From a virus, in the IMG/VR virus record IMGVR_UViG_3300025889_000703, positions 1-28,583 of that record: a stretch of DNA of 28,583 bases; one strand, written 5' to 3'. Made by a program: the position numbers and the translations under genes. The first letter of the stretch is position 1. Every line of letters begins with the position of its first letter. Below the pieces are notes generated by a model. That model saw only the letters and a program-made list of their open reading frames with translations, was not told the DNA's origin and searched no databases. Below, one piece after another: positions 1,027 to 19,642 of the stretch.

Positions 1027-1452
1027 TTACTTCAAAAGTTCCAACCGAAGCATATGCCACTGCATCTGAGCAAGGTTACAGGCCCACACGGGCTCCACGT
1101 CAACACCCACCAGGACTAAATCCCCCGCTTGCTCCCCACGGTACAACCGCAACTCAGCCGTCTTACTCGAAGTCGTTCCCGGTGGGTGATACTGCACCAA
1201 AACAAAGGTCGGAACCCTTAGGTCGGCATGTTTCAAGTGAAAAGCCACTTGATGAGGACTCAAGGCTACCTTACGGCCACGCTTCGTCACTTTTAGCTCT
1301 ACCATGACAAAGCGGGGTTGTTGGGGGCCCAAGGCTATCAAGCAATCAGGAACACCTAAACCCACCCGAGATTCAAGACGGGTGATATGACTATTCGGTA
1401 GGTTTTCCTTCAGTCTCTTGTACAGGGCCGCTTCCGGCTTTATTGTTGACAT
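1027..1452 (-). CDS. VRR-NUC (PD-(D/E)XK) nuclease
   Basis: A 141-aa stand-alone VRR-NUC domain. An N-terminal helix carries PEAALYKRL; the core motif is RVGLGVPDCLI (D36) followed by FVMVELKV, giving E52-x-K54 of the PD-(D/E)XK fold; the following LSPHQVAFH (Q68) is also typical. VRR-NUC proteins of phages act on branched or structured DNA in a Holliday-junction resolvase-like way, which fits a gene beside the small terminase: branches must be removed before packaging. The ATG lies inside the 3' end of the terminase gene (62-nt overlap in another frame) behind AGAGGA. The fold assignment is secure; the exact DNA substrate is inferred. Confidence 0.85.
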   Translation of the reverse strand: MSTIKPEAALYKRLKENLPNSHITRLESRVGLGVPDCLIALGPQQPRFVMVELKVTKRGRKVALSPHQVAFHLKHADLRVPTFVLVQYHPPGTTSSKTAELRLYRGEQAGDLVLVGVDVEPVWACNLAQMQWHMLRLELLK

Positions 1453-10580: not shown

Positions 10581-12443
10581 TTATGCCGCTTTACCCCAGG
10601 AAGGTCCAATTTCTACGTCCACCCTGGAGGGGATTTCAAGCTCCACGGCGTTTTGCATAATCTCGGCTGCTTCACGAGCCTCACCATAAGAGGATACTGA
10701 CAAGGCTATTTCGTCATGAACCTGCAACAGGAGGTTGAAACCTGCTTTATGGAGCGCCACCATCGCAGCCTTTGTCTGATCAGCGGCCGAGCCCTGGATG
10801 AGTCGGTTCAAGCCTTTGTAAGTAAATGCTCGCTTAATGGATCGACCATATTCCATAATGGCTTGCTCATACGGAAGGGCCTTGTTTATGCCCCACTGCG
10901 TGGGCTCCCAGAGAGGGAAGCGGCACTTACGCCCGAGCAAAGTACGGATGGCGCCCCCTGATCCGGGGTGCTCGATTCGTTTCATCACGGCATTGACCGT
11001 GCCCTTTAGGAACGGCACTTTCTGGTGAAAGACGGTCATAAGCTCACCGGCCTCATCTACCGGTAGATCAAGCTGGTCGGCCAGTTTGTTCTTACCCATG
11101 CCGTACATCAGGCCCAGGCCAATGGTCTTAGCCTGTTTTCTTTGGATGCCTGCCATGTCGGCCACCATCTGGTGAAAGTCGGTGCCGGGGTTGTCTCGGT
11201 AGGCTTGGGCCATGGTCTCTGCTCCTGGAAGGTCGAGCAGGGTGGCGTAGTGCACCAGAAGACGGGGCTCTTGGCTAGAGAAGTCGCAGGCGGCCCATTG
11301 CTGACCTTCTTCGGGTAGGAAAAGGCTTCTCACAAGGGGTCCAATGACCTCATGCCGTGCAGGCACCTGCTGCAAGTTTGGGTTTGCCATTGAGAGGCGG
11401 CCGGTGACGGTGCCACCGTCGTCTGAACGCAACTGGTTAATGTGTGGATGGATGCGGCCGTCGGCTCGTGCGTGGTCCAAATAAGGCCCGAGGAATGTGC
11501 CGGCGGTCTTGTTGAACTCCCGAGACTCGGTGATCAGTTGGCTAATTGGGTGGTCATGTGTCTCTAAAAAGCTACGCGTAAAGCTTGGTGCGCCTTTGTC
11601 CGTTCGAGGGTACTCAATTTTGAGCTTGTCAAAAGCCCTTGCAATGCTTGCAGCGGCCCAGATGTCCACCTTCTCACCAGATATCTTTTTTATATCTTTC
11701 TGCAGGCTTTCTTCACGTTCCTGCATTTCTGCAATCCGCTTTTGAGCCATATGTGAATCAAAACGGATGCCTTTGAGCGTTATATTGACCAAAATAGGCA
11801 AGAGCTCTGTTTCCAGATCAAAGATGGATTCGACCTCTTCTTTGCGCAGGACCGTCTTGAAGTGTTGCCAAAGCTTCAATGTAAGGGCAGCGTCCTGCTC
11901 GGCATATTCGCCCACGAACATCGCGGGAAGCTTCCAAAGTTCTTTTTTGGCGTGGACGTTAAAGTCGCCAGCCGCTTCTTTTAATCCCTGCTCAGACTTG
12001 ACTTCTTTGAGGTAGTCAAAGCCCAGTGCGTTCAAGGAAAAAGAGAAGCGGTTCTCGTCAATTAACGGGGCTGCAAGCATGGTGTCAATGATCTGGCCAT
12101 TGACCTTGAACCCTGAGGAAAGAAGCCAGCCCATGTCATAGGCTGCGTTGTGCATGACCTTGGTGTTGGGAAGCTCTAGCGTTTTTCTGACAAAGTTTTC
12201 AACTAAGCGTTTGTCAATGTTGCCACCGCCTTCGTGAGCCACGGGAAAATAGCCACGCCAACCGTCGACTGCGAATGCGTAGCCAACGATGTAACCGTCT
12301 TTGCGAGCCCACCCAGGTCCCATGGTTTCCATGTGTGGATCACATGTCTCCAGGTCGATTGCAATTTCGTCAGCAGAAGAAAGATCGGGAAAGTCATAGG
12401 GCGGTACCCATTCGGTTTTTCTTGGAAACAATGGAATAGTCAA
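10581..12443 (-). CDS. polA: DNA polymerase A with 3'-5' exonuclease domain
   Basis: 620 aa, the replicative polymerase. The exonuclease domain is intact: IDLET (D30, E32), MHNAAYDMGWL (N99, D103) and YAEQDAALTL (Y180, D184). The polymerase domain has motif A ACDFSSQEPRL (D387), motif B on the O helix R435-KQAK439-TIGLGLMY447, and motif C VHDEIA (H576, D577). No 5'-3' exonuclease domain is present, as usual in phages. At the position equal to Phe762 of E. coli Pol I there is a leucine (L443). The TTG start overlaps the helicase stop as TTGA, behind AAAGGA, so expression is tied to the helicase. Assignment is certain. Confidence 0.97.
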   Translation of the reverse strand: MTIPLFPRKTEWVPPYDFPDLSSADEIAIDLETCDPHMETMGPGWARKDGYIVGYAFAVDGWRGYFPVAHEGGGNIDKRLVENFVRKTLELPNTKVMHNAAYDMGWLLSSGFKVNGQIIDTMLAAPLIDENRFSFSLNALGFDYLKEVKSEQGLKEAAGDFNVHAKKELWKLPAMFVGEYAEQDAALTLKLWQHFKTVLRKEEVESIFDLETELLPILVNITLKGIRFDSHMAQKRIAEMQEREESLQKDIKKISGEKVDIWAAASIARAFDKLKIEYPRTDKGAPSFTRSFLETHDHPISQLITESREFNKTAGTFLGPYLDHARADGRIHPHINQLRSDDGGTVTGRLSMANPNLQQVPARHEVIGPLVRSLFLPEEGQQWAACDFSSQEPRLLVHYATLLDLPGAETMAQAYRDNPGTDFHQMVADMAGIQRKQAKTIGLGLMYGMGKNKLADQLDLPVDEAGELMTVFHQKVPFLKGTVNAVMKRIEHPGSGGAIRTLLGRKCRFPLWEPTQWGINKALPYEQAIMEYGRSIKRAFTYKGLNRLIQGSAADQTKAAMVALHKAGFNLLLQVHDEIALSVSSYGEAREAAEIMQNAVELEIPSRVDVEIGPSWGKAA

Positions 12444-13948
12444 AGTCGGAATCCTTTAGTGTAATTCTCGGGTCGTATGAGATGGAGCTCTTTCTTGGCG
12501 CGTGTTAATCCCACGTAAAGCAATCGGTTCATGTCATCGGGGTTCTTGTCGTATTCGTTCATGAAACGTGCAGAGAGGTCCAGTCGGAACAAAACCTTCT
12601 CTGCTTCACCACCCTTTACAGCGTGGATCGTGGACAGTCGTACGGGGGCCTTGCCTGCTAGTTTAACGCCCCTTCTCAACAAAGCGATGATGTAATTCCT
12701 TTTGTCCTCTGCAATTTTTGTCAAGGCCTCGTGCCAGATAACGTCGGTCAAAAGACCGTGATGTTTTTGCAATTTGTCAAGCGTAAACAGTTCTTCCCGG
12801 TCGGCTGTATTTAACGACTTAAATCCTCGCTTGATATACTCAGAACCAAGATGCTTGTAGACCTGGGAGACCACGTTGAAGGGAACTTCTTTGCCCTTTC
12901 GCAACGTTTCCCACCCTAAGACGGCTGTCATTACGGCCTCCGCAACGCTCCTGTTGCCGTTGCGCTCAAACAAAATCCCTTCTGACAACAGCCAAGAATG
13001 CATGGGGTTCAAGAAGTAGTTTGTTGCGGCGATCACGAGCCAGTCGCTGCCATCATGTATGTTCACTTGATCGAAGCGGTCGTACACATAGATGTTGCCT
13101 TCGTCGCCTTCTTTCGGGCTCCAGACTTTGGGCTGCCGTTGGCGTATCCGATTGGATACAGCATCCGCCGCTTGGTGTATTTTTGGTGGGACGCGGTAGC
13201 TCTTGTCCAAAACAATCGTCTCGCCCGGTAACTCAAGAAAGGTGTCCACGTCGGCCCCGGCCCAACGGTAGATGGCCTGGTCATCATCGCCTGCGATGTA
13301 GCCTGTAACGCTACGCGTTACAAGTTCCTTGACAATGTCCCACTGCAGGCGTGAAAGGTCTTGGGCCTCGTCAATGATGACGGTTTCAAGGTTTGGCAGG
13401 CGATCAGGTTCAAGAAGGATTCGTTCTAACAGATCCGTAAAGTCCAACAGCAGGCGTGTCTGCTTGTATTGGCGATACGTGCGTTCAACGAACTCAAAGT
13501 GAAACCACTCGATCTGCAGGTTGCTACGGTTGTAGTGTGTGTGCAGATCATCGCCTCGGATACGTGCAAGGTTGATCTCGTTAAGAATAGGGTTGTCTGC
13601 CTTAACAAAGCCATCTTCTTCCCCCGTCTCTTCTACTGTCATGTCCAGGTTGGCGATCTTGGCAAATTCGCGGAAGTTTTCTGGCGCCATCATGTCTTTG
13701 CTGGTTATGCCCAGGCAGCGGTACGCAAGCGAGTGCAGAGTGCGGAAGTAAGGAAAGTCCGTCTTCTCATTCAAATGGGGGAACTTGATCAAAGCCCGTT
13801 CCCTTGCCTCGGTGCTTGCTTTGCGGGTGAAGGCAAAGTAACCGATGTCACAGGGCAGCACACCCCGGTCGAGCTCATGTTCAACAGTGTTTAACAGGTA
13901 TGTCGTCTTGCCGGTTCCAGGAGGGCCGAAGACCTTATGGATAGTCAT
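12440..13948 (-). CDS. UvrD/Rep-like superfamily 1 DNA helicase
   Basis: 502 aa with all SF1A motifs in order: Walker A FGPPGTGKTT (7-16), Ia FTRKA (40-44) and RTLHSLAYR (69-77), II IIDEAQD (191-197), III AGDDDQAIYRWAGA (219-232), IV KSYR (249-252), V LSTIHAVKGGEAE (438-450) and VI LYVGLTRAKKEL (477-488). Such 3'-5' translocases unwind DNA using ATP; here it probably works with the polymerase encoded next to it, taking the place of a DnaB-type replicative helicase, none of which is seen. It is smaller than cellular UvrD (about 700 aa) and lacks most insertions. Its start lies 14 nt inside the upstream gene. Confidence 0.95.
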   Translation of the reverse strand: MTIHKVFGPPGTGKTTYLLNTVEHELDRGVLPCDIGYFAFTRKASTEARERALIKFPHLNEKTDFPYFRTLHSLAYRCLGITSKDMMAPENFREFAKIANLDMTVEETGEEDGFVKADNPILNEINLARIRGDDLHTHYNRSNLQIEWFHFEFVERTYRQYKQTRLLLDFTDLLERILLEPDRLPNLETVIIDEAQDLSRLQWDIVKELVTRSVTGYIAGDDDQAIYRWAGADVDTFLELPGETIVLDKSYRVPPKIHQAADAVSNRIRQRQPKVWSPKEGDEGNIYVYDRFDQVNIHDGSDWLVIAATNYFLNPMHSWLLSEGILFERNGNRSVAEAVMTAVLGWETLRKGKEVPFNVVSQVYKHLGSEYIKRGFKSLNTADREELFTLDKLQKHHGLLTDVIWHEALTKIAEDKRNYIIALLRRGVKLAGKAPVRLSTIHAVKGGEAEKVLFRLDLSARFMNEYDKNPDDMNRLLYVGLTRAKKELHLIRPENYTKGFRL

Positions 13949-14171
13949 TTATATCCCCCGGCCACACAATGATTGGTGTTTCCTCTCCCACATAAGCACC
14001 TTCAATGTTGAACCCAACAAACTCAAAAGCCTCTTCCTGAGTCATACCTTCCGAAACAAGTTTTTCAACGATTTTGTTCCCGTCATACACAAGAACTTCA
14101 ACCCTCGTGTGGTTGATCCATGGGGTTGCTGATCCGATAACAGCGTCATCATGTCCGTCAATTTTTAGCAT
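13935..14171 (-). CDS. Conserved small protein of the replication operon
   Basis: 78 aa, starting MLKIDGHDDAVIGSATPWIN. DGHDDAVIG opens, a strand VEVLVYD follows, then a helix with EKLVSEGMTQEEAFEFV and an end FNIEGAYVGEETPIIVWP. I recognise this as a small protein conserved in proteobacterial phages and prophages, with no known function; its place between primase and helicase suggests a replication accessory. It starts in a TGATG overlap with the primase stop. Confidence 0.78.
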   Translation of the reverse strand: MLKIDGHDDAVIGSATPWINHTRVEVLVYDGNKIVEKLVSEGMTQEEAFEFVGFNIEGAYVGEETPIIVWPGDINDYP

Positions 14172-15697
14172 CAGAACGGACTCACTTTGCCCTGCTCAGG
14201 CGTGTCAAACGGTGCATCCTGGCGTTCAAACTTTGGAATGCGCCAGCAGCGTGTTTGCCTTCCCTTGAGGTAGAGCGTAATCGGCTCGCCACCCAGATCA
14301 CGAACACGTTGCGCCATACGCCCTGGGGCCATGCCCAAGAAGTTGTTGCGCTTTAAGTGTGTTTCGAGGTCCTTGAACCGGAAATAGGTCTTCGCTTCAA
14401 CGTCATCCGTAAAGGGTCGGCCCATGAGGATCTCATCACGGTCCATTGCTTGTTGCAAGTGAGTCGTAAACTCCTCCAAGAGATCGTTGAAGCGGCCGGT
14501 GATGCTGGTGTCCTCAGGTGCTTCTTGAATTTGTTCGGATTCCACCATCTCGCGCAGCAGTGCATTAAGCGCGGTCTCCCAGTCTTGCTTGCGCAGAGTG
14601 GGCGGCAGCAGGTTGATCTTCTCAACGCAGGCCTTTTGGAAAAGGTTTTGGTTGTACAAGCTGTCGGTATCAAGCTCCATGCGCTTGCCGTTCACGTCAA
14701 TGAACCAGATGGGTGGTTCGCTTGCATATTTGGACAGTGATGCAAGGGACGGCGAGTCGGGTCCGCTGGCCCCGATCCCGTGTTTGCGAGTCCGGCACAG
14801 GCTGCTGTTACAGAAGCTGTTGATCGGTGCGTCTTTGCACTTGTACAAGTAATCTTTTTTGGTGAGCTGCTTGACGATGATCTGCAGTTCTTGCAGCCCC
14901 AAAGGCGGGTGGAAGTACTTGTTGTTGTACTCCATCAGCTTGGTGTCCCAGTCGTGCGGGTTGGCTTTCTTTAGGTAGATGCCGATGTTAAAGAGGCCGT
15001 TGTTCCGTGTGCCTTCGGGAAAGCCTTGTGTGCAAAGCGCCTGCAGGCAAGGAGGGCCGTCCGGTGCTGGGTGGTCTGCCTCTTTGGGTGGGTTGATTTC
15101 AGGGATGCCGTCTTGAACAAACTTGTTATGTAGCTCGTAAAACTCTTCTAACGTCGCCGCTGCGCCTTCGTCGTTGATCGCATAGCGCATCCCGTTATCA
15201 CCTGCAAAGTAAGGCAGGTTAAGAAAATTACCGGTATCGCCCCGATCGACAAGAATCTCAGACTGTTTTGGAAAGATTTCACGGCCAGACTCCCCTAGTA
15301 ATGCGGCACAGGCCTGCAGACAGTTCTGCATCATAGCGGCCGAGACAGGTTCTTTTGTAAACAGGAATGCGTGTGCGCCTCCGCTTTTGCTACGGCAAAC
15401 GACCAGAGGCAGATTAAGTTTGCGAATCTTTGTGACGAGCCCCAGGTGGTCAAGTGGGTACTGGTCAATGTCTATGCAACCCCAGATGCAGGTGTTGTCT
15501 GCACGAATGGGGATGATGCCCAGGCTGGGTTCTACACCTTCAAGGTGCTTTTCCCAGAGGTCATCGGTTGGAGGTTTGCGAACGACAACAGCCTTCCCGG
15601 CCTGCTTGCCATCGCCCCGTGAGCCTTCAATTTTGTATGTTCCGTAGGCGATGTCCAGCCCGGAGAAAATCGCCTTGAACCTTGTTATGTCGGTCAT
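14171..15697 (-). CDS. Archaeo-eukaryotic-type (TOTE-like) primase with PriCT-like and Cys-rich region
   Basis: 508 aa. Residues ~1-170 form an AEP primase core: DID at 76-78 (metal-binding), CRSKSGGAHAFLF with H109, EIFPKQ (140-145) and GNFLNLPYF, the pattern of the primases of TOTE conflict systems. It should make primers for the family A polymerase. Residues ~217-305 hold EGTRNNGLFNIGIYLKK, like a primase C-terminal domain, and cysteines C217, C222, C287, C296 and C301 that could bind zinc or an iron-sulfur cluster. The last 200 residues are helical and unassigned. No helicase motif is fused. The ATG follows AGAAAGC. Confidence 0.85.
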   Translation of the reverse strand: MTDITRFKAIFSGLDIAYGTYKIEGSRGDGKQAGKAVVVRKPPTDDLWEKHLEGVEPSLGIIPIRADNTCIWGCIDIDQYPLDHLGLVTKIRKLNLPLVVCRSKSGGAHAFLFTKEPVSAAMMQNCLQACAALLGESGREIFPKQSEILVDRGDTGNFLNLPYFAGDNGMRYAINDEGAAATLEEFYELHNKFVQDGIPEINPPKEADHPAPDGPPCLQALCTQGFPEGTRNNGLFNIGIYLKKANPHDWDTKLMEYNNKYFHPPLGLQELQIIVKQLTKKDYLYKCKDAPINSFCNSSLCRTRKHGIGASGPDSPSLASLSKYASEPPIWFIDVNGKRMELDTDSLYNQNLFQKACVEKINLLPPTLRKQDWETALNALLREMVESEQIQEAPEDTSITGRFNDLLEEFTTHLQQAMDRDEILMGRPFTDDVEAKTYFRFKDLETHLKRNNFLGMAPGRMAQRVRDLGGEPITLYLKGRQTRCWRIPKFERQDAPFDTPEQGKVSPF

Positions 15698-15745: not shown

Positions 15746-16513
15746 TTAGAAGGGTGCGTTTTGTGAAGCGCCTTCAACTTCGTCATGGTGTTTTACCTTG
15801 ACTTCGCCGGCATTAATGCTGAGAGCAAATGCCTTTGCTGCCTGATAAACACCAACATCTTCAACCGAGCCGATGCGCTCGATCTCCCAACCGAACCATT
15901 TGCCTTTGTCATTTGACTCAGGGGCCGTGGTCAGTCGGTAGAGCTGCGAGTACATTGGAGGGGTGTACAGCCCGTTGGCTCCTGGGAGCTTCACGGACAT
16001 GGCCATGCTGTTCCACTTGCGGGACTTCTTTAGCTGCGTAGACTTCATCGAGATAAGGGCAGGCATGGGGGTGCCATCCTCACGGATTACCATGACATAG
16101 TGGTTCGCGGTGTTCTCGATGTAATTCCCGTTGTCAAGATAGTCCTTGTTATCGCCGGGTTCCCGATGCGTTTTGGACAGGACATCACTCGTCGCAGGGT
16201 AGATGTTGATTGGTGCGCCACTTCCTGAACCGCGTGGTGCCCACTCGATGTACTGGCGAACGTAAGCGCAAGACACAACTTCAATACCCTTCTTGCCGTC
16301 GTGCAGCTCGCCGGTTACGGTGTTGTAGACCATTCCAGGCATTGCACCTTCCACCGAACCCACTTCTGGGCTGGTGTTGGTTAACAGGCGCAGAAACGGA
16401 AGCGCATAGTCTTCTTGGTCCATACCATCAAAACCACCCATAGCGTCCTGCTCAAAGGTTGAGACAAGAGCTACAGCACCTTCATTTTTTACTGCAACGT
16501 CATTCTTAGCCAT
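15746..16513 (-). CDS. Probable single-stranded DNA-binding protein
   Basis: 255 aa. An N-terminal segment with MDQEDYALPFLRLLTNTSPE leads into beta-rich sequence (GMVYNTVTGELHDGKKGIEV, VVSCAYVRQYIEW) and NYIENTANHYVMVI, which I recognise from conserved phage proteins in replication modules that are thought to bind ssDNA in the manner of T7 gp2.5. The C-terminus (HHDEVEGASQNAPF) is mildly acidic and ends in Pro-Phe as bacterial SSB does, a possible docking tail. Position between primase and the two conserved upstream genes supports the role. It is not a RecT or Beta protein as far as I can see. AAGGAAA precedes the ATG. Confidence 0.62.
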   Translation of the reverse strand: MAKNDVAVKNEGAVALVSTFEQDAMGGFDGMDQEDYALPFLRLLTNTSPEVGSVEGAMPGMVYNTVTGELHDGKKGIEVVSCAYVRQYIEWAPRGSGSGAPINIYPATSDVLSKTHREPGDNKDYLDNGNYIENTANHYVMVIREDGTPMPALISMKSTQLKKSRKWNSMAMSVKLPGANGLYTPPMYSQLYRLTTAPESNDKGKWFGWEIERIGSVEDVGVYQAAKAFALSINAGEVKVKHHDEVEGASQNAPF

Positions 16514-16530: not shown

Positions 16531-17082
16531 TCAAGATTTAATAGTCGCTTTTTGGCCGATGTAGGCGCCAAAGAGCTCCGCAGGGAAGGCGTTGCCGCGC
16601 TCCACCTGTTCCTTCACCCATGCTTTTAAGGTCATGGGCTCCACCTTCTCGGCTTGATCGGCTGGGAAGCCTTTCTGACCGAGCAGATCCAGCAGACTCG
16701 CACAAAGCTCGTCTTCGCCGCGTCCAAAACGAACGCTGACTGTGTTTTTAATAATGTCGTCAAAGCCATTGTCACGAAGCCATTTAAAGGCTTCGGCCTT
16801 GCGCTCGGCACTGATGCTTGCAGAGTAAAAAGCCTTGACTTCAATGGACGAGCCATCGGCAAGTTTAAAAGATTTCATGCCAAGGCCGGTCATGGCCTCA
16901 GGAATGGACTCTTCCGTTAGCTTGAAAAACTGGTAGCTTTTTTCCTTCATGACTGCTTCGAGGTCCTTGATCTCTTTCTCAAGTTCCTTGGCACGACGGG
17001 CTAATGCGGCCAGCCCTTCAATGTCATTGTCCTTTACACGAAGTGCATCGGCGTCCTGCTCAAACATAGTTTCAATAGTCAT
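16531..17082 (-). CDS. Conserved replication-module protein with N-terminal coiled coil
   Basis: 183 aa from the ATG at 17082 behind AAGGAG. Residues 22-52 form a charged coiled coil (ARRAKELEKEIKDLEAVMKE); then a strand pair around FKLADGSSIEVKAFYSASI, AFKWLRDNGFDDIIKN (99-113), a short strand VSVRFGRGED, and an end block TLKAWVKEQVERG. The order of parts is well known to me from phage replication regions, next to an ssDNA-binding protein, but no function is established; the coiled coil recalls Gam-type nuclease inhibitors, which is a weak analogy. It overlaps the upstream gene by 11 nt. Confidence 0.72.
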   Translation of the reverse strand: MTIETMFEQDADALRVKDNDIEGLAALARRAKELEKEIKDLEAVMKEKSYQFFKLTEESIPEAMTGLGMKSFKLADGSSIEVKAFYSASISAERKAEAFKWLRDNGFDDIIKNTVSVRFGRGEDELCASLLDLLGQKGFPADQAEKVEPMTLKAWVKEQVERGNAFPAELFGAYIGQKATIKS

Positions 17083-17404
17083 CACTTTCTCCTTTATAAA
17101 AAAGATCAATCTGCATTGGGACGTACAGCTTTTCCCTGCGGTCCCACTTTAACAGCTTAAAACGGCCGTTGTTTTTTGCAGCGGCTGCTGCGCAGACAAT
17201 GCCGATAGCTGAAGGGTCACCAATGAGCACAAGATAATCCTCATCGGAAAAATTCTCAAGCTTGCGTTTGATTCTGTTCACAACAGGCACCACCGAGAAC
17301 AAAATCTGCGCATTGGGTGGCAGAATCGTAACAATCTCGCCGTACTGCATCGCAGGCGTTACGTTGTGTTGCGTGGTTTCTGACACCACATAGACTTTTG
17401 GCAC
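17072..17404 (-). CDS. Conserved small protein heading the replication operon
   Basis: 110 aa from the GTG at 17404, which follows TTAGAAAGGAGAAGGAA; a longer frame from a GTG at 17443 would begin upstream of the predicted transcription start. Sequence opens PKVYVVSETTQHNVTPAMQY, has FSDEDYLVLIGDPSAIGIVC, a small alpha/beta core, and ends GRFKLLKWDRREKLYVP. NVTPAMQYG and LLKWDRR are patterns of a small protein that goes with phage ssDNA-binding proteins and primases in aquatic phages. Function unknown. Confidence 0.75.
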   Translation of the reverse strand: MPKVYVVSETTQHNVTPAMQYGEIVTILPPNAQILFSVVPVVNRIKRKLENFSDEDYLVLIGDPSAIGIVCAAAAAKNNGRFKLLKWDRREKLYVPMQIDLFYKGESDDY

Positions 17405-17484: not shown

Positions 17485-18945
17485 ATGGAAGACAAATACC
17501 TAGCCACATTTCCGTTTAAAAACAAACCCTTCTTGCATCAGAAGGCTTACCTGCAACGGTTCTACAAAGAGCCTATCTGTGCGCTTTTTGCCGACACCGG
17601 TACGGGCAAGAGCTTCATGTTGATTAACAACATTGCGATGCTCTACGACCAGGGCAAGATTAATGGGGCTTTGATCGTGGCGCCTAAGGGCGTGTACCGT
17701 AACTGGTTCAAGCTTGAGATCCCCAAGCACATGCCCGATCACGTGGTGTACCGCATGGCGATCTGGAACCCAAGCCCGAAGAAGGCGGAGGCCGAGGCCC
17801 TTGATTCGATGTTCGGGGTCACAGAAGACTTGAAGGTGCTTGTGATGAACATTGAAGCGTTTAGCACGGACAAGGGGACGAAGTTTGCGCAGCGGTTCTT
17901 GAATGCGCACAACTCGTTTTTTGCTGTGGATGAAAGCACCACGATCAAAGGGCATACGGCCAAGCGCACGAAGAATACGATCAAGTCGGCAAAGCTTGCC
18001 AAGTACCGACGGATTGCTACGGGCTCGCCTGTGACCAAGGCCCCGATGGACCTGTACTCGCAGTGCGAGTTTTTGTCAGACGATTGCCTGGGGTTGCCGA
18101 GTTACTACTCCTTCTTGGCCCGTTATGCGGTGACCGTGGAGCGCAGTGTTGGCACCCACACGTTTAAGCAGGTGGTGGGCTACCGCAGGCTTGATGAGTT
18201 GCATGAGAAGCTTTCCAAGTTTTCTTTCCGTGTGCGCAAAGACGAGTGCTTTGATCTGCCAGAGAAGACCTTCTTGCGCAGGGAAGTGGAGCTCACGCCA
18301 GAGCAGAAACGAGCGTATGACCAGATGGTCTTGATGGCGCTTGCCACCTTTGACAAGGGGATGACGTCCACCACGAATGCCCTGACCCAGATCATGCGGC
18401 TGCAGCAGATCGTCTGTGGTCACATTACGTTGGACAACAAGGAGGTTGTGCCCCTGAAGAACAACCGGATCGCAGAGCTCATGTCTGCCATTGAAGAGTC
18501 GGACGGCAAGATCATCATCTGGGCCTACTTCAGGCACAGCATTGAAGAGATCAAACTTACTCTGCAAAAAGAATACGGCATGAACGCCGTAGCGACGTAT
18601 TTTGGAGACACTCCGGACGAGGAGCGGTCAGATATTGTGGAGAGGTTCCAGGACATGGATAACGAGCTGCGCTTTTTTATTGGCCAGCCACGGACCGGAG
18701 GCTATGGTTTGACCTTGACAGCGGCGCATACAATGATTTACTACGCCAACGGCTACGACTTGGAGACCCGGCTGCAGTCCGAAGCACGTATTGATCGCTA
18801 CGGCCAGACCCACAAGATGACATACATTGACCTATTTACACCCAATACCGTGGACGAGAAGATTGTCGACGCCTTGGTGAACAAGATGGACATTGCCAAC
18901 ACCATCCTGAAAGAAAACCCACGAGATTGGATTAAAAATGATTGA
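17485..18945 (+). CDS. SNF2-like superfamily 2 helicase/translocase
   Basis: 486 aa. Motifs in order: Q-type LHQK (17-20), Walker A ADTGTGKS (36-43), Ia LIVAPKGVYRNW (63-74), II VDES (148-151), III ATGSPVTKAPMDLY (178-191), V RTGGYGLTLTAA (403-414) and VI QSEARIDRYGQ (431-441) followed by TYIDLFTPNTVDEKI, typical of the SNF2/Rad54 branch. No DNA-binding or nuclease domain is fused. SNF2-type phage proteins probably move along duplex DNA to remodel forks or protein roadblocks. It is on the opposite strand from the replication operon and overlaps the exonuclease gene by 8 nt. Motif II ends Asp-Glu-Ser, a variation found in phage members. Confidence 0.93.
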   Translation: MEDKYLATFPFKNKPFLHQKAYLQRFYKEPICALFADTGTGKSFMLINNIAMLYDQGKINGALIVAPKGVYRNWFKLEIPKHMPDHVVYRMAIWNPSPKKAEAEALDSMFGVTEDLKVLVMNIEAFSTDKGTKFAQRFLNAHNSFFAVDESTTIKGHTAKRTKNTIKSAKLAKYRRIATGSPVTKAPMDLYSQCEFLSDDCLGLPSYYSFLARYAVTVERSVGTHTFKQVVGYRRLDELHEKLSKFSFRVRKDECFDLPEKTFLRREVELTPEQKRAYDQMVLMALATFDKGMTSTTNALTQIMRLQQIVCGHITLDNKEVVPLKNNRIAELMSAIEESDGKIIIWAYFRHSIEEIKLTLQKEYGMNAVATYFGDTPDEERSDIVERFQDMDNELRFFIGQPRTGGYGLTLTAAHTMIYYANGYDLETRLQSEARIDRYGQTHKMTYIDLFTPNTVDEKIVDALVNKMDIANTILKENPRDWIKND

Positions 18946-19642
18946 ACTCTTCCCGATCAGGAAAAAGTACGTTTACGAAACCCTTGAACGGGTAGACGAT
19001 CCCGAACGGGGCAGGCGCTATGGCGACCAGAAGCTGCCCAGCGTGACCACCATCCTGTCTGCTACCAAGGACAAGTCTGGCCTTGATGCGTGGGCCGAGA
19101 GGGTTGGTCGGGATAACGCGGAGCGTATTAAGAACGAAGCGGCCACGGTCGGCACCCATATGCACAACGTGATAGAGCGGATGTTAGCGGCCAGGGACCT
19201 ACCCAGACCCACAACTTGGCTCCAATTGCGGGGTTATGAGATGGGTTACAGGCTCATAAACACGTATTTTTGTCACCTTAAAGAGGTTTGGGGCTCAGAA
19301 GTCACGCTTTATTATCCCGGCAAGTATGCGGGAACAACAGACTTAGTTGGCGTCTATCGGGATCAACCTGCGATAGTTGACTTCAAACAGTCCATCAAGC
19401 CTAAGCAGGCCAAGTGGATTCAGGATTACTTTCACCAGTTGGCAGCCTATGCCATGGCCCATGACATTGTGCATGGAACTTCAATCGAATTTGCGGCAGT
19501 TTTGGTGTCCGTGCAGGATGGATCCACGCAAGAATTCACCACCACAGGCAGTGAATTCAAGCGTTACAAGGAGGAGTGGATGCAGCGAGTGGAGAACTAC
19601 TGGGGCAACTGCAACGTCGTGTCAAACGGGAACAGTGATTGA
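18938..19642 (+). CDS. RecB/Cas4-like PD-(D/E)XK exonuclease
   Basis: 234 aa. The active-site set is complete: VGTHMHNVIE (H74/H76), SEVTLYYPGKYAGTTDLVGV (E121, D135), IVDFKQS (D148, K150) and QLAAYAMA (Q167, Y171), the order of RecB-type nucleases. There is no Cas4 cysteine cluster. Such phage enzymes degrade or resect DNA ends in recombination, or recycle host DNA. It overlaps the SNF2 helicase by 8 nt, suggesting a working pair, and its last 46 nt overlap the tail of the leftward 1130-aa virion gene. A putative annealing partner is not seen nearby except the ssDNA-binding protein. Confidence 0.92.
   Translation: MIELFPIRKKYVYETLERVDDPERGRRYGDQKLPSVTTILSATKDKSGLDAWAERVGRDNAERIKNEAATVGTHMHNVIERMLAARDLPRPTTWLQLRGYEMGYRLINTYFCHLKEVWGSEVTLYYPGKYAGTTDLVGVYRDQPAIVDFKQSIKPKQAKWIQDYFHQLAAYAMAHDIVHGTSIEFAAVLVSVQDGSTQEFTTTGSEFKRYKEEWMQRVENYWGNCNVVSNGNSD

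Follow-up and report, generated by a model that had tools for sequence, protein, structure and literature searches.

The open reading frame (ORF) at positions 14171 to 15697 of the window, by which we mean the whole 28,583-nt stretch of viral DNA analyzed here, raises the question of whether a single phage protein could join an archaeo-eukaryotic primase (AEP) domain to a cysteine-bearing domain resembling that of PriL, and act as the replicative primase of its phage. An earlier note, made from the sequence alone, had proposed as much, describing a TOTE-like AEP whose second part holds five cysteines that recall the iron-sulfur domain of PriL. As a whole that observation stands, with corrections to the strand, to one cysteine (C222), to the architecture, and to the TOTE label. 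The bounds of the ORF were exact and every residue named (D76, D78, H109, C217, C222, C287, C296, and C301) matches the translation, but the gene lies on the minus strand, the plus strand carrying stops in frame.

The single chain was rightly foreseen, as the AEP domain and a second-part, four-cysteine domain are encoded in one 508-aa ORF (Table 1). The order of domains is AEP, PriCT/PriX-like domain with four cysteines, and C-terminal winged-helix-like domain. The protein belongs to PHROG 21866 (E 9.7e-95, residues 1-458), which the PHROG table names "primase" without further description. The reading we favor, and hold to be reasonably likely, is of a one-chain replicative primase in which an AEP domain is joined to a PriCT-1/PriX-like domain with a four-cysteine metal centre, encoded in a UvrD-PolA-SNF2 module.

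Table 1. Features of the primase gene and its neighbors, in window coordinates.
Feature	Position	Strand	Support
Primase gene, 508 aa: AEP, four-Cys PriCT/PriX-like domain, C-terminal winged-helix-like domain	14171..15697	-	ORF list, Pfam, PHROG, VIA
AEP catalytic domain, residues 1-203	15089..15697	-	Nearest structure CAPP of Marinitoga (VIA); Pfam AEP-TOTE
D76 and D78, catalytic acids, DxD motif	15464..15472	-	Invariant, 225/225
H109, catalytic, after invariant K104 and S105	15371..15373	-	Invariant, 225/225
E140, probable third active-site acid	15278..15280	-	Invariant, 225/225; aligned to 7nqd
PriCT-1/PriX-like helical domain, residues 208-316	14750..15076	-	Model pLDDT 92.9; PriX match; PriCT_1
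C217, first of the set, in invariant PPC motif	15047..15049	-	226/226
R231, invariant; probable counterpart of PriX R72 / human PriL R306	15005..15007	-	226/226
C287, second cysteine	14837..14839	-	226/226
C296, third cysteine	14810..14812	-	226/226
C301, fourth cysteine	14795..14797	-	226/226
C-terminal winged-helix-like domain, residues 395-495 (tentative)	14213..14515	-	VIA Z 8.1 to 5vfx, 86 aligned, rmsd 3.3
78-aa ORF, PHROG 13182, directly downstream of primase	13935..14171	-	ORF list, PHROG
UvrD/PcrA-like SF1 helicase	12440..13948	-	Pfam UvrD-helicase E 1.8e-28; syntenic in 76/80 close loci
Family A DNA polymerase with 3'-5' exonuclease domain	10581..12443	-	DNA_pol_A E 2.3e-59, DNA_pol_A_exo1 E 7e-10; syntenic in 75/80
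Pam3 gp34-like gene, directly upstream of primase	15746..16513	-	Pfam E 1.1e-63; syntenic in 78/80
Pam3 gp33-like gene	16531..17109	-	Pfam DUF7307 E 3e-35; syntenic in 72/80
SNF2/HepA-type SF2 helicase	17485..18945	+	Pfam E 5.3e-21; 65/80 loci
PD-(D/E)XK exonuclease	18938..19642	+	PHROG 298 E 7.3e-49; 60/80 loci

The AEP domain and the TOTE label

The ORF encodes an AEP, and primer synthesis is predicted for it from the sequence and the structure model. The solved structure nearest to the predicted model was the CRISPR-associated Prim-Pol CAPP of Marinitoga (VIA Z 20.3, 188 residues aligned, rmsd 3.3), and the LigD polymerase also aligned at Z 10.2, as befits an AEP fold. In searches of PDB sequences, profile A1 retrieved CAPP (E 1.6e-12) as its only credible match, and the window protein sequence alone retrieved nothing. 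The Pfam family AEP-TOTE (PF22548) was matched at E 9.8e-13, with 48.7 bits against a cut-off of 27. Conservation was counted over 226 distinct relatives, or 225 at AEP positions, where one row is a fragment. The earlier note had made the assignment depend on conservation of D76, D78, and H109; each is invariant, as are K104 and S105 (identical in 225 of 225), so that both the DxD and the SxH-type motif are present, and the fold together with these active-site residues confirms the AEP identity. E140 pairs with the glutamate of EIFPKQ in CAPP in the alignment to 7nqd.

The label "TOTE-like" suits the AEP domain, which fits the TOTE profile, but not the rest of the protein, which has no fused helicase. 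TOTE stands for TPR, OB, TBP, and Effector, as given in an excerpt of PMC12458937. Pfam found no helicase family in the 508-aa primase and no TPR, OB, or TBP domain among the eight window proteins scanned. By comparison, of the 17 matches to AEP-TOTE in a single phylum, 13 fall within open frames of 807-998 aa, which align to the window family over the AEP part only (L307 excepted); one TOTE-type AEP, read whole by eye, continues into a helicase, as the window protein does not. Among plasmid matches to a TOTE-type AEP, all 15 listed (of 93) lie in genes annotated as DEAD/DEAH box helicases. A TOTE conflict system was rejected as the identity of this gene because only the AEP domain matches.

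CAPP, whose AEP domain is like that of the window protein, is described in part of PMC8211822 as having an N-terminal TPR and a CRISPR context. The NCBIfam model for CAPP (NF040561) scored the window protein at 22.9 bits, not reaching its cut-off of 200, and found nothing over the family cut-off in sets of 9, 398, and 296 genomes. PADLOC, run on four window proteins, returned weak Cas4-type matches to the exonuclease (E 0.0016). Conserved cysteines are reported for the PriCT of CAPP's C-terminal domain (CTD) in a figure legend of PMC8211822, a possible likeness to the window domain.

Four invariant cysteines and a possible kinship with PriL and PriX

The cluster of five cysteines described in the earlier note is borne out for C217, C287, C296, and C301. 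C222 is a cysteine in just 88 of the 226 relatives, and for this reason the set counts four cysteines, not five, and C222 was dropped as a ligand. The four all lie within one 85-residue stretch, C217 ending the PPC motif, the second cysteine standing 70 residues on, and the remainder following as C287-X8-C296-X4-C301. None of the four is replaced by His in any of the 226 relatives, and the remaining cysteines of the protein vary, being conserved in 6 to 203 of 225-226 sequences. Judged from the aligned sequences, such conservation is far beyond chance, and it is probable that these four residues coordinate a metal or an iron-sulfur cluster.

The domain that carries them most resembles PriX in predicted structure and PriCT in sequence. 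Of the 38 chains that VIA could re-align to residues 208-316, the two of PriX came first (5of3_C at Z 5.8, 82 aligned, rmsd 3.5; 4wyh at Z 5.0) and the third reached Z 2.1; with the full model, PriX 4wyh matched residues 213-297 at Z 5.8. For a predicted helical domain of this small size, a Z of 5-6 is a modest score. Foldseek alone gave PriX an E of 5.2 with the same domain, and PriL CTD chains were absent among the VIA matches listed for the full model and for the domain. In Pfam scans with E up to 10, PriCT_1 (PF08708) was matched by 71 of 82 members (best E 2.8e-10); the window copy fell under the cut-off (E 0.025) and several other members exceeded it. A search of BFVD with the domain returned a phage "DNA primase small subunit" as its best match (E 2.0e-5). 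Query A2 against PDB sequences returned an argonaute, a chance match, and no PriL or PriX.

The second Pfam family was DNA_primase_lrg (PriL, PF04104), matched by 16 of the 82 members with a best E of 0.016, below the cut-off. All PF04104 matches were under the cut-off and came from related sequences, and smaller scans matched it in 0 of 8 and 3 of 10 members. Direct sequence proof of PriL homology failed, neither hhalign nor hmmsearch giving a significant score: hhalign of the domain with the human PriL CTD and with the PriL-like part of PolpTN2 gave a probability of ~1% over 9 columns at PPC, and hmmsearch with the domain profile left human PriL among the decoys (E 9.2) or, after five divergent members were added, second behind a decoy (E 0.34). 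The profile comparison suggested in the earlier note came out for PriCT and not, as a direct score, for PriL. The four-cysteine set does recall PriL, and an iron-sulfur cluster is plausible.

The domain has in common with PriL and PriX the PriX fold match, the four cysteines, and a PPC...R...GLF pattern as in human PriL (FPPC...GGRMQYGLF in the human CTD and GPPC...GTRNNGLF here), in which C217 takes the place of the first PriL ligand and R231 follows. The window protein differs from PriL in having the catalytic domain in the same chain and its last two cysteines 5 apart. The spacing from third to fourth cysteine is far longer in PriL (in the human protein, C384 to C424), and PriL has a separate Fe-S_C subdomain for which the window domain, to judge from its length, would have no room. 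Three PF08708 proteins of the ordinary kind, read by eye (L319, L320, and L323), have neither the PPC nor the cysteine trio; a control set of ordinary PriCT-1 yielded 2 matches only from 120 genomes scanned. The kinship of PriCT, PriL, and PriX is already published (an excerpt of PMC5862659), and the PriS-PriL fusion of PolpTN2 and the cysteines in CAPP's PriCT were also known before. The complete invariant cysteine set was not found in print, and a literature search thin on subscription journals found no paper that assigns an Fe-S cluster to a PriCT domain or to a phage primase.

PolpTN2, of the Thermococcus plasmid pTN2, is likewise a single-chain AEP with a PriL-like domain and four cysteines, which are present in 7 of 7 sequences, PolpTN2 included. 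According to part of PMC3973330, this fused PriS-PriL primase is light brown when purified, and its catalytic His is not conserved. It differs from the window protein in belonging to archaeal plasmids, in its 926-residue open frame, and in having no significant profile match to the window domain. Its PriL-like part matched no Pfam family, a viral scan with the domain found no relative, and PDB searches with the domain and its alignment found nothing credible.

The same cysteine pattern occurs with a different, PriS-like AEP core in the primases of KLEB27-3 (C247/315/324/329, the sole four cysteines of the protein), MTATph1 (C225/296/305/309), Thermus phage P23-45 (C244/318/327/331, with separate N-terminal cysteines at 15, 18, 32, and 35), and TSP4 (C245/319/328/332). 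The whole KLEB27-3 and MTATph1 proteins are over the PriCT_1 cut-off in Pfam and match, below cut-off, both PF01896 (E 7.1e-5 and 3.6e-4) and PF04104 (E 0.0056 and 0.12); PF04104 was not matched by the KLEB27-3 domain alone. Against PDB sequences, the best match of the MTATph1 primase was PriS 1zt2 (E 0.36), with no PriL or PriX. We tentatively suggest, as a possibility short of probable, that tailed bacterial phages possess a compact PriL-type [4Fe-4S] initiation module, interchangeable between at least two AEP cores (one CAPP/TOTE-like, the other PriS-like in Thermus, Moorella, and Bacillus phages), and that single-chain Fe-S primases would correspond, in phages, to the PriS-PriL heterodimer, replacing DnaG/DnaB in the window family.

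The replication module around the gene

The family A polymerase keeps its place in close relatives (Table 1), in agreement with the phage replication module originally proposed, and the placement of UvrD with the primase is conserved in each of three sampled clades (76/80, 58/58, and 78/80 loci). Neither DnaB_C, Toprim_2, nor the DnaG zinc ribbon was found in the records of eight relatives. Given the conserved UvrD/PolA/SNF2 module and the lack of these domains in the eight records, the gene is therefore probably the phage's replicative primase; the record spans 28.6 kb, so a further primase could lie beyond the window. The C-terminal domain of the primase also matched Cch residues 436-553 (5dgk) at VIA Z 7.1, and this region and that of 5vfx are, we assume, winged helices; this part of the protein may bind DNA or partners.

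The window polymerase reads KTIGLGL, by eye, at the Leu-762 place, a site that from its motif is presumably PolA position 762. It scored 325.6 bits with the DpoZ_1 profile, whose cut-off is 500. As regards Z-genome chemistry, the 2-aminoadenine phage SH-Ab 15497 carries a relative of the window primase, but neither PurZ nor DatZ is named in the annotation of DSL-LC04.

Proposed mechanism, rival readings, and significance

In the mechanism we propose, the AEP domain would make the first dinucleotide on a single-stranded template, and the helical domain would dock on it. The helix starting at R231 would use its N-terminus to grip the triphosphate on the initiating nucleotide, with R231 acting as R72 of PriX and R306 of PriL do. 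Together the four cysteines would coordinate a single metal centre that would link the two ends of the helical domain; a PriL-type [4Fe-4S] cluster is the likelier centre, zinc the less likely. The primer would then pass to the family A polymerase, with the UvrD-like helicase doing the unwinding. Modelling of CAPP suggests that its CTD acts on the initiating nucleotide in the manner of Pri2/PriX (an excerpt of PMC10345425). Nevertheless, priming may not depend on the helical domain, because S. solfataricus can prime without the Fe-S cluster (a portion of PMC5700102) and the catalytic core of CAPP, stripped of its CTD, is still an efficient primase in vitro (the same excerpt of PMC10345425).

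The same primase could instead lack an Fe-S cluster and bind one zinc ion through its cysteines, in a structural knuckle like the zinc finger of UL52/PrimPol or a zinc ribbon. We regard this as unlikely, though worth serious attention: C296-X4-C301 resembles the C-X4-C half of the UL52/PrimPol-type finger, and PriL gives no significant score in direct profile comparison. Moreover, the zinc-binding motif of PrimPol is reported to be required for its primase activity (part of PMC10415149), and zinc sites are common in AEPs (part of PMC4434180). A zinc site fits less well with a first cysteine 70 residues ahead of the second, in a PPC as in PriL, with the absence of His at these positions throughout the 226 sequences, and with P23-45, which carries its N-terminal cysteines as a separate group beside the four-cysteine set. 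Exactly four invariant cysteines in 85 residues, and the same set at near-equal spacing in primases otherwise little alike (in KLEB27-3, with no others), also make it very improbable that the cysteines are conserved for separate reasons such as redox, fold, or protein contacts, with no common metal, a reading that can appeal to the structure model having been made without metal.

A different objection concerns the role of the protein, which might be an accessory Prim-Pol for repair, lesion bypass, or TOTE/CRISPR-like defence or counter-defence, the phage using the host primase. Its AEP domain is indeed nearest to CAPP and the TOTE AEP profile, and phages are able to borrow host DnaG. The placement of UvrD, PolA, and SNF2, conserved in the three sampled clades, argues against such a role, as do the missing TPR, OB, and TBP domains in the eight scanned window proteins and DnaB_C in 0 of 8 relatives' records, and we consider it improbable.

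As a probable one-chain replicative primase, the window protein bears on two matters. In the SERC sample, modules joining PolA with Leu762 to UvrD and SNF2 helicases drew 16.4% of all reads that recruited to PolA contigs (an excerpt of PMC6302109), and the family may be the primase of such abundant virioplankton replication modules; the same excerpt places DnaG in all of that study's clades carrying both RNR and PolA, which calls for caution with this reading. The role of the Fe-S cluster in archaeal and eukaryotic primases is disputed, with part of PMC5700102 arguing that it is dispensable. Some primases with the same cysteine set come from Thermus phages, and a small one-chain phage primase with that set, of 508 aa or even 315 aa, would make the disputed role of the cluster testable.

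The primase gene and its neighbourhood

The open reading frame singled out in the earlier note is real, but its strand is minus: it runs from an ATG, and stops interrupt the plus strand over the same span. All eight residues named there (D76, D78, H109, C217, C222, C287, C296, and C301) have the identities assigned to them. Pfam places AEP-TOTE on residues 42-163 (E 9.8e-13), and the protein belongs to PHROGs family 21866, "primase" (E 9.7e-95). By tblastn, 25 phage records contain relatives; in 23 the match covers at least 80% of the query, and several already carry the annotation "primase". One relative, the 610-aa ORF of locus L242, has about 107 additional residues near the end of the AEP (archaeo-eukaryotic primase) domain, perhaps an insertion.

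Primase and other features of the window
Feature	Position	Strand	Remark
VRR-NUC-type nuclease look (by eye)	1027-1452	-	141 aa; no credible Pfam match
PolA	10581-12443	-	325.6 bits on DpoZ_1 profile (cut-off 500)
UvrD	12440-13948	-	
Primase	14171-15697	-	508 aa
gp34-like	15746-16513	-	
gp33-like	16531-17109	-	
SNF2	17485-18945	+	

Without correction for loci that end early, UvrD follows in 76 of 80 close loci and PolA in 75, with gp34-like (78) and gp33-like (72) genes ahead and SNF2 on the opposite strand in 65; on the same count, the ct3-like clade (58 loci) has UvrD in 58, gp34-like in 58, SNF2 in 55, and PolA in 52, and the HTVC-like group (80 loci) has UvrD in 78, gp34-like in 64, PolA in 58, and SNF2 in 38. 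The claim that the AEP primase stands in a phage replication module with a family A polymerase is supported. UvrD was present in 8 of 8 phage records and was not seen in three SH-Ab-like loci with 3-kb flanks; phage SH-Ab 15497 has a PcrA-type helicase about 5 kb downstream of its primase. DnaB_C, Toprim_2, and the DnaG zinc ribbon were not found in the 8 whole phage records of relatives, while controls were positive in 14, 14, and 10 of 14 genomes, respectively. Given the UvrD/PolA/SNF2 synteny and these missing domains, a replication primase is the best reading, and its helicase partner in the window family is most likely UvrD. In Moorella phage MTATph1 and Bacillus phage KLEB27-3, in contrast, a helicase annotated as DnaB-like or replicative is encoded nearby. 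The primase relative of SH-Ab 15497 is carried by a 2-aminoadenine phage.

Invariant residues and the predicted fold

The starting set held 232 matching sequences (the window, its second copy L081, 222 IMG/VR loci, and eight phage records), 229 of which were kept with an open frame above 420 aa; clustering at 80% gave 62. Relatives from MAG contigs were added later, for 247 sequences, 226 of them distinct. L081, three repeated loci, and all identical sequences had been dropped before this count, and so had relatives at a profile E of 1e-70 or weaker: the 341-aa protein L307 and the TOTE-type proteins. D76, D78, K104, S105, H109, E140, and P143 never vary in the 225 sequences that have a residue there (one fragment is gapped); the three AEP residues expected to be conserved are among them. 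C217, C287, C296, and C301, together with P215, P216, R231, and G307, are identical in 226 of 226. The proposed five-cysteine cluster therefore keeps four members and loses C222, a cysteine in only 88 of 226; the remaining cysteines (70, 74, 101, 126, 130, 357, and 484) are kept in 6 to 203 sequences. Histidine never occurs at the invariant cysteine positions in the 226 sequences. Among the 208 sequences fitting the search pattern, the last three cysteines are spaced CX8CX4C in 154 and CX10CX4C in 54; the other 18 of 226 fall outside it, yet their cysteines align. The gap from C217 to R231 is 13 in 216 of 226 and 12 in 8, with 2 outside the pattern.

A full-length model was built from 83 aligned sequences (mean pLDDT 86.1). 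In it, residues 1-203 resemble CAPP, the CRISPR-associated Prim-Pol of Marinitoga (Z 20.3, 188 aligned, rmsd 3.3), followed by protein HP0184 (Z 11.4) and the AEP domains of LigD, Prim-PolC, and S-2L PrimPol (Z near 10). Residues 213-297 resemble PriX 4wyh (Z 5.8, 82 aligned, rmsd 3.3), and residues 395-495 several winged-helix proteins, with a best Z of 8.1 that is near the level unrelated folds can reach. When residues 208-316 were modelled alone (pLDDT 92.9), PriX led the 38 chains compared (5of3_C, Z 5.8; 4wyh, Z 5.0; next row 2.1), but Foldseek by itself gave PriX at E 5.2. In the model, the first helix of this domain (216-224) has C217 near its beginning, the second (231-245) opens with R231, and C287, C296, and C301 fall in the loop and short helices past the fourth.

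Relation to PriCT, PriL, TOTE, and CAPP

The earlier note likened the arrangement of the cysteines to the iron-sulfur domain of PriL. In single-sequence scans, PriCT_1 was matched by 71 of the 82 sequences in the domain alignment (best E 2.8e-10); DNA_primase_lrg, the PriL family, came second with 16 of 82 and a best E of 0.016, under its cut-off; the third commonest family had 4 of 82. In one member, domain residues 34-90 aligned with PriL profile positions 203-253, and in MTATph1 residues 5-51 with 106-153. The 203-253 region of the PriL profile was hit by 3 of 10 members in one Pfam scan and by none of the family members in another. The latter scan gave no Pfam family for the PriL-like part of PolpTN2 (the fused PriS-PriL primase of Thermococcus plasmid pTN2), a part whose kinship with PriL is published, so the PriL profile overlooks true relatives. 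Direct comparison was not significant: hhalign gave about 1% each against human PriL and PolpTN2, and hmmsearch left human PriL among decoys (E 9.2) or, with a widened profile, second behind a decoy (E 0.34). Kazlauskas et al. 2018 (PMC5862659) describe kinship among PriCT-1, PriCT-2, PriX, and the N-terminal portion of the Fe-S domain of PriL, and state that with one PriCT-2 profile two of the four PriL cysteines were aligned. Three of three ordinary PriCT-1 domains inspected by eye have neither the PPC motif closed by C217 nor the C287/C296/C301 trio. The window domain, GPPCLQALCTQGFPEGTRNNGLF, was set beside a stretch of the human PriL CTD. The first cluster ligand of human PriL and the initiation arginine appear to have matching places in the window domain. 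The roles of that arginine, R306 in human PriL and R72 in PriX, are described in PMC5700102.

TOTE (TPR, OB, TBP, Effector, as expanded in PMC12458937) was the likeness first proposed. AEP-TOTE occurs in 16 of 145 genomes of one phylum with 17 matches; the open frame around the match is 807-998 aa long in 13 of them, and one match, in a 510-aa frame, belongs to the window primase family. Those proteins and the CAPP-profile finds align with the window family only over about residues 40-207, with the exception of L307 and of two short extra stretches. One TOTE-type protein examined whole by eye runs on into a helicase, and of the 93 plasmid matches to the L307 AEP, the 15 listed are all annotated as DEAD/DEAH box helicases. 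On this evidence the window protein is neither TOTE nor CAPP; the AEP branch is common to all three, and the TOTE likeness holds as a Pfam match to the AEP domain. For CAPP, published work mentions a PriCT with conserved cysteines (PMC8211822), proposes a Pri2/PriX-like role for the CTD, and reports efficient priming by the catalytic core without it (both PMC10345425).

The four-cysteine module in other primases

Domain-only tblastn reached the primases of KLEB27-3 (7e-2) and MTATph1 (5e-2) at marginal E values, and the domain profile gave 9.2e-12 and 1.6e-10 (nominal 1000 sequences). In both, the AEP part differs in type from that of the window family, matching DNA_primase_S (PF01896) with E 7.1e-5 and 3.6e-4, slightly under the cut-off. 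The whole KLEB27-3 protein (337 aa) matches PriCT_1 and, weakly, the PriL family (E 0.0056), the latter match being absent with its domain alone; C247, C315, C324, and C329 are its only four cysteines. MTATph1 has C225, C296, C305, and C309 at almost the same spacing among eight cysteines altogether. Its relatives in Thermus phages P23-45 (PPC-C244/C318/C327/C331) and TSP4 (PPC-C245/C319/C328/C332) score poorly on the domain profile (E 0.25 and 5.9). In BboS-125 and Vibrio phage K478b the cysteines are more numerous and their pattern is less clear. A PriS-like AEP core with the same four-cysteine module is seen in KLEB27-3, MTATph1, P23-45, and TSP4. The AEP-TOTE protein L307/L318 (341 aa; genome G620, contig 35, from the phylum of L241's source) also ends in a four-cysteine domain (E 7.8e-6); near it lies an 822-aa ORF with, by eye, a HerA/TraG-type ATPase look.

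Parts of this picture are already published for relatives; no account of the complete PriL-like cysteine set throughout a large family of phages, or of its reappearance beside another AEP core, turned up in the literature searched. The invariance of four cysteines in a PriCT/PriX-type domain is strongly supported, and the fold itself is predicted with moderate confidence. The four cysteines probably bind one predicted metal centre, for which their pattern would make [4Fe-4S] roughly twice as probable as zinc. We conclude with strong confidence that the window protein is an AEP replicative primase of phages.
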